The notes under the pieces were generated by a model, which was not told where the DNA came from, ran no database searches, and saw only the letters and a program-made list of their open reading frames with translations. A stretch of DNA of 64,000 nt from Gracilinema caldarium (GTDB lineage: Bacteria > Spirochaetota > Spirochaetia > Treponematales > Breznakiellaceae): assembly GCF_029265695.1 (NCBI RefSeq), contig NZ_JAJUHW010000013.1, forward strand, positions 1 through 64,000. Direction: 5' to 3'. Numbering within the stretch: the first letter of the stretch is position 1; each line of letters starts with the position of its first letter. Shown here one piece after another: positions 23,029 to 25,452 of the stretch. Position numbers and translations under genes: made by a program.

Positions 23029-23057
23029 TTGAAACTTTTAATGCTATTGGCTAATAT
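23029..23057 (+). promoter_or_regulatory. Promoter of the mgtE leader
   Basis: TTGAAA (23029-23034), 17 bases, TAATAT (23052-23057), beginning three bases after the nagB stop. It predicts a transcript start near 23064 and a leader of about 235 bases before mgtE. Confidence 0.68.
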
Positions 23058-23063
23058 ATAAAA

Positions 23064-23298
23064 ATCCAACAGCGGCCAACATACGACCGCTCAATATAAC
23101 AGGAAGGAGGACAGGTATGAACGATTCCGACGGCCCTGGTAGTAGTCAGCCCCCGGAACCTCACTTATGCGTTCGGCCCTGTGCTGAATGCACCGTTCTA
23201 AACCGGAAGCCCTCCTGTTATTGTCTGCGGACTTTCTCATAAAAATCAGACAATCCAGTGTTGGTGCTTCCGACAAAATGCATCTATAGGAGGCAATC
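23064..23298 (+). promoter_or_regulatory. Structured 5' leader of mgtE
   Basis: This leader holds several paired elements: AGCGG/CCGCT around 23071-23091; an 8-base helix TAACAGGA (23097-23104) with TCCTGTTA (23213-23220) that encloses about 110 bases; and immediately after it ATTGTCTG (23220-23227) with CAGACAAT (23247-23254). A small open frame with a strong ribosome site runs through the enclosed part. The leader lacks the conserved blocks of the M-box magnesium riboswitch. Mg2+-dependent control of mgtE is a reasonable guess, by a different mechanism. Confidence 0.5.
23117..23242 (+). CDS. Possible leader peptide upstream of mgtE
   Basis: A 41-codon frame that begins with ATG after an AAGGAGG ribosome site at ideal spacing and ends with TAA 56 bases before mgtE. 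The peptide begins MNDSDGPGSSQPPEPHLC, rich in Asp, Gly and Pro, and later has seven cysteines in 25 residues. In Salmonella, translation of the short acidic and proline-rich MgtL frame senses Mg2+ through ribosome destabilisation or stalling; this frame has a similar N-terminal composition but no sequence kinship that I can see. It could instead be a chance frame in a structured RNA. Confidence 0.4.
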   Translation: MNDSDGPGSSQPPEPHLCVRPCAECTVLNRKPSCYCLRTFS

Positions 23299-24678
23299 AT
23301 GCTGGATCAACTCATCGCACCGGACATCAAGGCCCTCATGGAAGAGGGCAAATTCGAGGATATCGCAGCCTTTCTCGGAGAGCGGCACCCCACCGAAGCG
23401 GCGGAAATTCTCTCTGCTATTCCCGAAGACGATGTCAATCTCGTTTTGGAAAAACTGCCCCTGCAGACAGCGGCGGATATCTTCTGTGAACTTCCAAGCA
23501 CCGTCCAGTCACATATCGCATCAAAACTAAATAAGACCGACCTGGCAAAGCTTGTTATTAACCTTTCGCCGGACGACCGGGTCGACCTCCTTAAATCCCT
23601 GCCGGAAGAACAATTTGACTCGGTATTGCCCGTGCTTGCCCAGCGGGAACGGGAGGACATTAAAAAGCTGGCTTCCTATAAAGAAGGCACCGCCGGTTCC
23701 ATTATGACCACCGACTACATAGCCCTGCCAGCCTCCATTTCTGTCCGGGAAGCTTTGGAAAAAATACGCCTGGAAGGGCCTGCAAAGGAGTCCATTTACA
23801 CCATCTTTGTGCTGGACGAAGGCCGGCACCTCGCGGGGACCGTACGGCTTGCGGACCTCATTCTTGCTCATCCAACAAAAAAACTTAAGGATATTATGGA
23901 CGACCAGGTGATCTCGGTACAGGCCGAAGCAGACCGGGAAGAAGCAACCTACAAATTTTCCCGCTATGACCTGGTAGCCCTGCCGGTTGTGGACGGGAAC
24001 GGGAACCTGGTGGGTATCATTACCCATGACGACGCCCTGGACGTCATCGAGCAGGAACGAACCGAAGACATGGAACGGTTCATGGCCATTTCCGGTAAAC
24101 ACGAAGATACCACCTATCTCCAGACTTCTATCTGGACCCATTTCAGCCACCGGGTCCTTTGGCTCATTATTCTCGCAGTCCTGGGCCTTGTATCGGGGGC
24201 TATCCTCCAATCCTTCGAATCGACCCTCATGAACCTGATGATCCTCGCCTTTTACATGCCCATGCTGGCCGATACGGGGGGCAACACAGGGAGCCAATCT
24301 GCTACAGTGGTAGTCCGAGCCCTGGCACTTAAAGAAATCAGTCCTAAGGACATTTTTAAGGTAATTTGGAAAGAAGCCCGGGTAGGATTCCTGCTTGCCC
24401 TCATACTGGGAATACTTGCATTTGTGCGGGTTTATTTTACATCCCAGGGAGCAAGCATTCCTGAAAGCATGAGTATCGTGAACATCGGCCTCGCCATCGG
24501 CATAGCCCTAGGCATACAGGTATTAAGCGCCACCATAATCGGAGCCCTGCTTCCCCTAATTGCAGCAGCCTTTGGGCTCGACCCGGCCTTGGTAGCCAGC
24601 CCAGCCCTCACCACCATTGTCGATATTTCGGGGCTGTTCATCTATTTTAGCACCGCCCGGCTCCTCCTTGGCATCTAG
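23299..24678 (+). CDS. mgtE: Magnesium transporter MgtE
   Basis: MgtE is a Mg2+ channel gated by internal Mg2+. The 459 residues contain the N-terminal superhelical domain (repeats of the FLGERHPTEAAEIL kind), two CBS domains (about 135-260) and five membrane helices in the C-terminal third, with the conserved pore segment DTGGNTGSQSATVVVR near 330. An AGGAGG ribosome site lies before the ATG. It heads a unit with crcB, DUF190 and possibly OsmC genes and follows an unusual leader that probably controls it. Confidence 0.96.
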   Translation: MLDQLIAPDIKALMEEGKFEDIAAFLGERHPTEAAEILSAIPEDDVNLVLEKLPLQTAADIFCELPSTVQSHIASKLNKTDLAKLVINLSPDDRVDLLKSLPEEQFDSVLPVLAQREREDIKKLASYKEGTAGSIMTTDYIALPASISVREALEKIRLEGPAKESIYTIFVLDEGRHLAGTVRLADLILAHPTKKLKDIMDDQVISVQAEADREEATYKFSRYDLVALPVVDGNGNLVGIITHDDALDVIEQERTEDMERFMAISGKHEDTTYLQTSIWTHFSHRVLWLIILAVLGLVSGAILQSFESTLMNLMILAFYMPMLADTGGNTGSQSATVVVRALALKEISPKDIFKVIWKEARVGFLLALILGILAFVRVYFTSQGASIPESMSIVNIGLAIGIALGIQVLSATIIGALLPLIAAAFGLDPALVASPALTTIVDISGLFIYFSTARLLLGI

Positions 24679-24719: not shown

Positions 24720-25118
24720 ATGAACATACTGGCAGTGCTTTTCGGCGGAGGAGCCGGGGCCGTATCCCGCTACCTACTTTCTCGGCTCATTTCTGAACAT
24801 TCGACCGCCCCCATCCCCATGGGAACCCTGACGGTAAATCTTATCGGTTCTTTTCTCATCGGTTTCTTCTTTCAGGCCTTTAAAAACACAACCGCATCTC
24901 CAGCCTTGCGGCTCCTTGTAACCACAGGCTTTCTCGGTGGCTTTACCACATTTTCCACCTTTGCGTTGGAAACCGTAACGCTCGCAGAAGAGCGGGAACT
25001 TGGATATACCCTGCTCAATCTCTTGCTCCATAACGCCATAGGACTTGCGGCAGTGATTTTGGGCATGATTACCTTTTCTGTGTTAAAATCGATACTAACG
25101 GGGGTATTTCATGCATAG
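24720..25118 (+). CDS. crcB: Fluoride channel Fluc/CrcB
   Basis: A 132-residue membrane protein with four helices that exports fluoride as a dual-topology dimer. Visible signatures are GGGAGAVSRYLLS, the pore Asn in TLTVNLIGSFLIG, and GFLGGFTTFSTFALE with the phenylalanine and serine/threonine track. It overlaps the DUF190 start by eight bases and follows mgtE by 41 bases. The short upstream gap has no room for a fluoride riboswitch. Confidence 0.95.
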   Translation: MNILAVLFGGGAGAVSRYLLSRLISEHSTAPIPMGTLTVNLIGSFLIGFFFQAFKNTTASPALRLLVTTGFLGGFTTFSTFALETVTLAEERELGYTLLNLLLHNAIGLAAVILGMITFSVLKSILTGVFHA

Positions 25119-25452
25119 CGAAGAAAAGGACATCTTACTCCGCATTTTTATCGGTGAGAACGACCACCACAAAGGCAGACCCCTTTATGAGGCAATTGTC
25201 AAAAAAGCACGGGAACTGGATCTTGCCGGAGCGACAGTCCTGCGGGGCATCATGGGATTTGGCGCCGACAGCAGGCTTAAAAGCGCTCACATACTGGACC
25301 TCTCTAACGATCTACCCATTGTAATTGAAATCATCGATAAACCGGAACAAATTGATAAACTCATTCCTTTTTTGGACGAAGTGGTAACCGAGGGCCTCGT
25401 AACCATAGAATCGATACGGGTGTTAAAATACCGGAATCATTCCGGCACCTGA
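25111..25452 (+). CDS. DUF190 protein
   Basis: A 113-residue cytoplasmic protein of the DUF190 family, which has a PII-like ferredoxin fold. Typical parts are LLRIFIGENDHHKGRPLYEAIV (split after GEND) and ATVLRGIMGFG, then LPIVIEIIDKPEQI. DUF190 genes often sit next to crcB, and here the two overlap, so a role in fluoride resistance or in regulating the channel is likely, but the biochemical function is not known. Confidence 0.88.
   Translation: MHSEEKDILLRIFIGENDHHKGRPLYEAIVKKARELDLAGATVLRGIMGFGADSRLKSAHILDLSNDLPIVIEIIDKPEQIDKLIPFLDEVVTEGLVTIESIRVLKYRNHSGT

Follow-up and report, generated by a model that had tools for sequence, protein, structure and literature searches.

Within the 64,000-nucleotide stretch of Gracilinema caldarium DNA analysed here (hereafter the window), the genes nagA and nagB are followed in order by a promoter, a leader, mgtE, a crcB-type fluoride exporter gene and a small gene. 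The leader contains a short upstream open reading frame (uORF) and several RNA segments with alternative pairing partners (Table 1). A sequence-only reading of this locus had described a clear promoter and a 41-codon frame behind a good ribosome site, and we recovered both, with six bases between AGGAGG and the ATG of the uORF. Its translation, MNDSDGPGSSQPPEPHLCVRPCAECTVLNRKPSCYCLRTFS, opens with acidic residues separated by a single position (D-S-D) and continues into a Pro-Pro-Glu-Pro run. The crcB-type gene and the small gene (24720-25452) stand close behind mgtE and possibly share one transcript with it; the small gene is without an NCBIfam match.

Table 1. Features of the mgtE leader in window coordinates.
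Feature	Position	Strand	Basis or remark
Sigma-70-type promoter, TTGAAA-17-TAATAT	23029-23057	+	Promoter-like sequence; TTGAAACTTT box also 5' in G001, G002 and G003
RNA arm 1	23096-23104	+	Just 5' of and touching the uORF ribosome site; helix 1:2 with 23213-23221, 9/9 pairs
uORF ribosome-binding site, AGGAGG	23105-23110	+	Sequence; ribosome site before the leader of every listed relative
Leader uORF, 41 codons	23117-23242	+	Codons 1-16 (MNDSDGPGSSQPPEPH) conserved; rest not conserved as peptide
Hairpin P1, codons 3-14 (TTCCG 23125-23129 with CGGAA 23154-23158)	23125-23158	+	Predicted in type-A folds
Hairpin P2 (TGCGTTCGGC with GCTGAATGCA)	23168-23192	+	Covarying changes
RNA arm 2, distal uORF	23204-23227	+	Pairs with arm 1 (23213-23221) or arm 3
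Helix 2:3	CGGAAGC 23204-23210 with 23266-23272; ATTGTCTG 23220-23227 with 23247-23254	+	Duplex shuffle test
RNA arm 3	23247-23272	+	Partner of arm 2 in helix 2:3, or of the mgtE ribosome site and start in helix 3:4
RNA arm 4: mgtE ribosome site AGGAGG (23288-23293), start codon (23299) and first codons	23288-23307	+	Helix 3:4
mgtE, 459-residue Mg2+ transporter, putative regulated gene	23299-24678	+	Pfam PF01769; NCBIfam TIGR00400, 402 bits, above cut-off

An Rfam search of the whole window returned nothing above threshold, the best sub-threshold match in the leader being a minus-strand sRNA (E 0.73), and the Rfam covariance models matched neither the window nor six related loci. The M-box (ykoK) riboswitch and the Rfam mgtA leader Mg_sensor are comparable in acting from the 5' leader of Mg2+ transporter genes, but the window and the relatives examined fit neither covariance model. 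A known riboswitch is thus ruled out, in agreement with the earlier view that the leader does not resemble an M-box. No Pfam or NCBIfam family was found for the leader peptides, and no terminator-like site was found on the + strand between the uORF and mgtE, so that attenuation by an intrinsic terminator was rejected. The leader folds more stably than its shuffled versions (z -2.4), with 4 of 200 shuffles equally good.

Conservation of the leader peptide

The three remaining genomes from this genus carry orthologous leaders, as do G018, G043 and G053, with further ones in L063, L070 and G344, and the N-terminal peptide remains recognisable in all of the leaders named here. Its first 16 codons are conserved as far as other families of the order. 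Across G000-G003 every base of codons 2-16 is identical, at a distance at which 44-48% of the mgtE codons encoding the same residue differ (window vs G001 and G003), and the probability of seeing no synonymous change in these codons is about 5e-5 to 1.5e-4. After codon 16 the frame is lost: the shared CCGGAAGCCCTCC reads N-R-K-P-S in the window and K-P-E-A-L in G001, and the C-terminal two thirds of the uORF vary in frame and length even inside the genus. The 3' half is not conserved as peptide because indels change its frame, and while the N-terminus of the peptide highlighted by the sequence-only reading stands, a role for its cysteine-rich tail is unsupported; a cysteine-rich metal-binding peptide was accordingly ruled out. 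From the identity of codons 2-16 and the loss of frame beyond them we infer that peptide and nucleotide sequence are both constrained at the N-terminus, with constraint in the 3' half acting on the RNA alone, a division that a ribosome-sensing leader predicts.

The same pattern bears on another possibility, namely that the uORF encodes a small functional protein or is plainly coupled to mgtE translation without any sensor. Its strong ribosome site and the retention of its start in relatives speak for this, but a C-terminus so variable within one genus argues against a functional protein, and in the leaders analysed the uORF stop lies at least 46 nt 5' of mgtE, which is too far for simple coupling. 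We therefore consider this possibility very improbable. A divergent leader, MILSVVDDQPPQPISTL, was also seen 145 nt before mgtE in L160 (G344), from another family of the class; it keeps the QPPxP of type A (described below) and is without D-S-D.

To describe the breadth of the motif we used 175 distinct mgtE loci, mostly from Spirochaetota with some from other phyla, and a rule comprising a ribosome site, a start codon and, by codon 14, D-[S/T/P]-[D/E/G], with a distance limit of 330 nt. Such a uORF precedes 50 of the 175 loci. As controls, the reverse strand and the inside of mgtE gave 1 case each, and 20 dinucleotide shuffles averaged 0.3. The rule was derived from the window and partly shaped on the first relatives, but the margin over the controls is far too large for this shaping to matter. 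The leaders were sorted into subtypes A (MxDSDGPGSSQPPEP), B (MSLRKxxDTDSDPYGSK), C (MSDSDGGGS), D (MDDPDGSTDYHIRQ) and E, a mixed remainder that includes MSDSDGS and MNDSDSS from assemblies of deltaproteobacteria. The definitions of arms, motif and subtypes all followed inspection of the same sequences. Profile searches with type A (296 genomes) gave matches below 1e-4 that all lie before mgtE, and those with type B (200 genomes) did the same bar two exceptions, a tandem copy before an mgtA-type ATPase gene and a degenerate copy. In L236 (G212:C23:3562-3621), a degenerate second DSDPYGSK leader lies just 3' of an ATPase-like gene and is not followed by an importer gene.

Short ORFs are common in the region, which is the one point in favour of a chance ORF combined with chance pairing. 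Set against it are the enrichment of the motif, 50 vs about 0.3 expected, and significant profile E-values that are almost wholly confined to Mg2+ importer genes; on these comparative data the chance explanation can be called already refuted, and we give it practically no weight. A more specific alternative is a polyproline leader, in which ribosomes pause in an EF-P-dependent manner at Pro-Pro-Glu/Asp (codons 12-15) and the acidic residues matter little. EF-P reportedly controls translation of Salmonella mgtA via proline codons (PMC6460261), and QPPEP or QPPDP is retained in type A. However, many subtypes are without Pro-Pro yet carry D-[S/P]-D (MSDSDGGGS, MDDPDGS, MDDDGGSS), and we regard such a stall as improbable.

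Codon usage within the motif points in two directions. The middle serine of D-S-D is encoded by TCG (11), TCC (8), AGC (6), AGT (3), TCA (2) and TCT (2), and this spread over all six codons implies that the residue itself is selected rather than the codon. The Gly-Ser of the motif, on the other hand, is GGT-AGT or GGC-AGT in 43/43 cases counted (codons 8-10, window 23138-23146), so that a codon or RNA feature, as yet unexplained, must be kept there too. Together, the near-frozen synonymous sites and the fixed AGT show a constraint at the RNA or codon level that a peptide-only model leaves unexplained, which counts against the reading preferred below.

Predicted alternative helices of the leader

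Two 8-base helices had been proposed from the sequence alone. The first, TAACAGGA (23097-23104) with TCCTGTTA (23213-23220), pairs exactly; the second, ATTGTCTG with CAGACAAT (23247-23254), is equally exact but is better read as part of the longer helix 2:3 than as a helix of its own. Not included in that description is helix 3:4 over the mgtE ribosome site, in which GGAGGCA (23289-23295) pairs with 23265-23271 and CTGGAT (23302-23307) with 23253-23258, and which is excluded by 2:3. In the window, helix 1:2 reaches -21.3 kcal/mol (12 of 300 shuffles equally good), helix 2:3 reaches -27.4 kcal/mol (z -3.6; 1 of 300) and helix 3:4 reaches -23.4 kcal/mol (z -4.2; 0 of 300).

All three helices are found in the window, G001, G003, G018 and G043; they persist in three lineages despite differing sequences. 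Helix 1:2 is kept with a different sequence in G001, G003 and G018, and G018 and G043 retain the whole set despite largely different sequence; in G018, helix 1:2 is formed by TCTTTTACTAAGG with CCTTAGTAAGAGA, and helix 2:3 by CGGGAG with CTCCCG plus GCCCTTAG with CTAAGGGC. Hairpin P2 shows the changes C-G to T-A and G-T to G-C to A-T among the window, G001, G003 and G018, and P1 is only weakly supported (duplex z -0.2 to -2.3). Pairing over the mgtE ribosome site (3:4) is stronger in most leader-bearing types than in loci without a leader: its mean z is -3.0 in type A, -1.6 in type B, -3.3 in type C and -2.4 in type E, compared with -0.40 in 114 leaderless mgtE loci, from which type D (-0.8) differs little. 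The type-A RNA analysis covers about six genomes, four of them from one genus.

These observations leave room for a metal-sensing riboswitch, whose aptamer would consist of the conserved 50-nt core, P1, P2 and the closing helix, with the uORF being secondary or incidental. Covariation of P2 and the closing helix, the near absence of synonymous change in codons 2-16 within the genus and the invariable AGT of the motif Gly-Ser would all suit an aptamer. Against it, Rfam gives no match; what the subtypes have in common is a ribosome site, a start and a D-[S/T/P]-[D/E] peptide, with serine taken from both codon boxes, and not one fold; and the tandem DSDPYGSK and the DDDGGS leaders before mgtA (see below) fit a peptide code better. 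We think a riboswitch unlikely.

Our preferred reading is instead a translated regulatory leader, in which ribosome behaviour on the uORF sets mgtE translation, and we modelled folding of the RNA before the mgtE site has been made. In the model, helix 2:3 of the window hardly forms in naked RNA (probability 0.01), forms fully once a ribosome occupies codons 1-13 (1.00) and is lost when one sits over arm 2 (0.00), and G002 and G003 respond in the same way. Several observations count against this reading: before transcription reaches the mgtE site, helix 2:3 already forms in G001 with no ribosome present; in G018 it likewise needs no ribosome and dominates throughout; and by the shuffle test, support for helices 1:2 and 2:3 is weak or lacking in L070 and G053 and weak in L063. 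Likewise, types B and C keep the peptide, mostly without a clear 2:3, and the motif is missing from most mgtE loci of the phylum. In the fold model, G043 does not respond clearly. Given that 1:2 and 2:3 are unclear in L063, L070, G053 and most of types B and C, the switch may be wired differently there. Also against this reading, the full leader, folded at equilibrium under ribosome masks, gave no switch of the mgtE site in the window group; in the full-length window RNA, 3:4 stays in place with a ribosome on the uORF start and P(2:3) is 0.05. It is due to this failure at equilibrium that co-transcriptional timing has to be assumed.

Magnesium importers and the proposed mechanism

Related peptides are also found before another class of importer. 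In L224/L259 (G212:C236:5138-5260), the DSDPYGSK motif occurs in tandem before an mgtA-type P-type ATPase gene, of which only the N-terminal half is available; it matches Mg2+-translocating ATPase models best, below the full-length cut-off. Among the mgtA loci found by an ATPase search in the family (16 genomes), 5/16 carry a leader by the strict rule and about 8/16 by eye. A peptide beginning MNDSDGSH lies upstream of mgtA in G001, from the window's own genus, and MDDDGGS-type peptides lie upstream of mgtA in four loci, with others elsewhere. Such similar peptides before mgtA-type Mg2+ ATPases strengthen the link to Mg2+. For corA, 30 loci yielded no convincing leader and one weak, probably spurious match, and corA was dropped as a third target. 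The occurrence of a similar leader before two unrelated Mg2+ importers, mgtE and mgtA, and not before corA is the best evidence here for Mg2+ as the signal. A different arrangement is seen in L264, where the acidic leader is replaced, 214 to 16 nt before an mgtA-type gene, by a tandem pair of small hydrophobic ORFs, MVFQLVTSIM... and MVFQLVISIM..., both of which have a ribosome site.

What places a leader among those of the MgtL/MgtQ kind is a short uORF with a ribosome site before an Mg2+ importer gene, early acidic residues that are adjacent or one apart, often with proline, mutually exclusive helices that overlap the uORF and expose or hide the next control site, and, at low Mg2+, less translation of the uORF and more expression of the transporter. 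The window leader has the first three (DSD and PPEP; D-[S/T/P]-[D/E] in relatives), with the helices less clear in types B and C, and for the fourth it is only predicted to conform. In E. coli, ribosomes pause at or are ejected by acidic residues that are neighbours or one position apart and lie among the first 30 residues, as they are by the EPDP of MgtL at low Mg2+ (PMC11282234), and in Salmonella mgtQ, Asp2 and Glu5 act via a four-arm scheme in which 2:3 is stronger than 3:4 (PMC8092293). Like the window leader, the intergenic uORF of Salmonella mgtQ-mgtB is short, has a strong ribosome site and encodes acidic residues early on; its arms pair as 1:2, 2:3 and 3:4, with 3:4 hiding the ribosome site of an Mg2+ transporter, and the order of duplex energies, 2:3 above 3:4, holds in the window as well (PMC8092293). 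Unlike it, the window leader has 41 codons rather than 8 and stands before mgtE in a different phylum rather than within an operon before a P-type ATPase gene, and its motif, DSDG(x)GS-QPPEP, does not resemble the MgtQ peptide. By eye, no sequence relation to MgtQ or MgtL is visible, and the likeness of the peptides is limited to their acidic and proline content.

MgtL (mgtA) and CorL (corA) of Enterobacteriaceae are also leader peptides before Mg2+ transporters, MgtL with acidic and proline residues, and their translation is inversely linked to transporter expression. They act, however, by Rho-dependent transcription termination, whereas in the window it is mgtE's own ribosome site that lies in an alternative helix, and no leader like that of the window was found among the 30 corA loci of relatives. 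A structured element before mgtE has been described in Thioalkalivibrio (SRC-65-1), with a stem that holds the ribosome site and AUG; in the parts of that source available to us it is a riboswitch candidate limited to one gammaproteobacterial genus, and a uORF is not mentioned (PMC11109978).

We propose that with ample Mg2+ ribosomes would read the whole uORF and cross arm 2, leaving arm 3 to pair with the start of mgtE and its ribosome site (3:4, OFF). At low Mg2+, ribosomes would be destabilised or paused on the acidic and proline-containing N-terminus and leave short of arm 2; those at the uORF start would block 1:2, and arm 2 could then capture arm 3 (2:3) ahead of transcription of the mgtE site, keeping mgtE open (ON). 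To this proposal of a translated leader whose ribosome behaviour sets mgtE translation, we assign a probability of roughly 0.7, the Mg2+ signal, the drop-off and the direction of switching being inferred. What comparison of sequences alone can establish is a conserved frame, start and N-terminal peptide, an association with two families of Mg2+ importers, and exclusive helices kept by compensating change. The checks named in the sequence-only reading came out in its favour: start, ribosome site, frame and N-terminal peptide are all kept in relatives, the D-S-D serine switches codon box with the residue unchanged, the helices persist with altered sequence in G001, G003, G018 and G043, and Rfam gives no hit. 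Its suggestion of a separate Mg2+-sensing leader is to that extent supported, and the window leader most likely works like Salmonella mgtQ-mgtB and MgtL, a judgement by analogy.

The leader belongs to a separate and apparently undescribed family, in another phylum and before another transporter class than MgtQ and MgtL; we found no account of it in the openly accessible literature, subscription papers and supplements being outside our scope. We also lean, if only slightly, towards the broader view that MxDSDGxGS marks an ancient, undescribed family of Mg2+-sensing leader peptides that controls mgtE and mgtA in Spirochaetota and some deltaproteobacteria through a four-arm switch convergent with that of Salmonella mgtQ.

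Sensing of Mg2+ through ribosome stability on an acidic leader peptide is established in E. coli and Salmonella. If our interpretation is correct, it would fill a gap, as neither the window nor the relatives tested showed a known Mg2+ riboswitch before mgtE, and the dozens of natural variants (DSD, DPD, DDD, DSE and tandem forms) could be used to learn which nascent chains respond to Mg2+. A separate peptide family, in another phylum and before both mgtE-class and mgtA genes, would make the ribosome a widespread Mg2+ sensor, and ribosome destabilisation would then be a general bacterial gauge of Mg2+ rather than an enterobacterial peculiarity.
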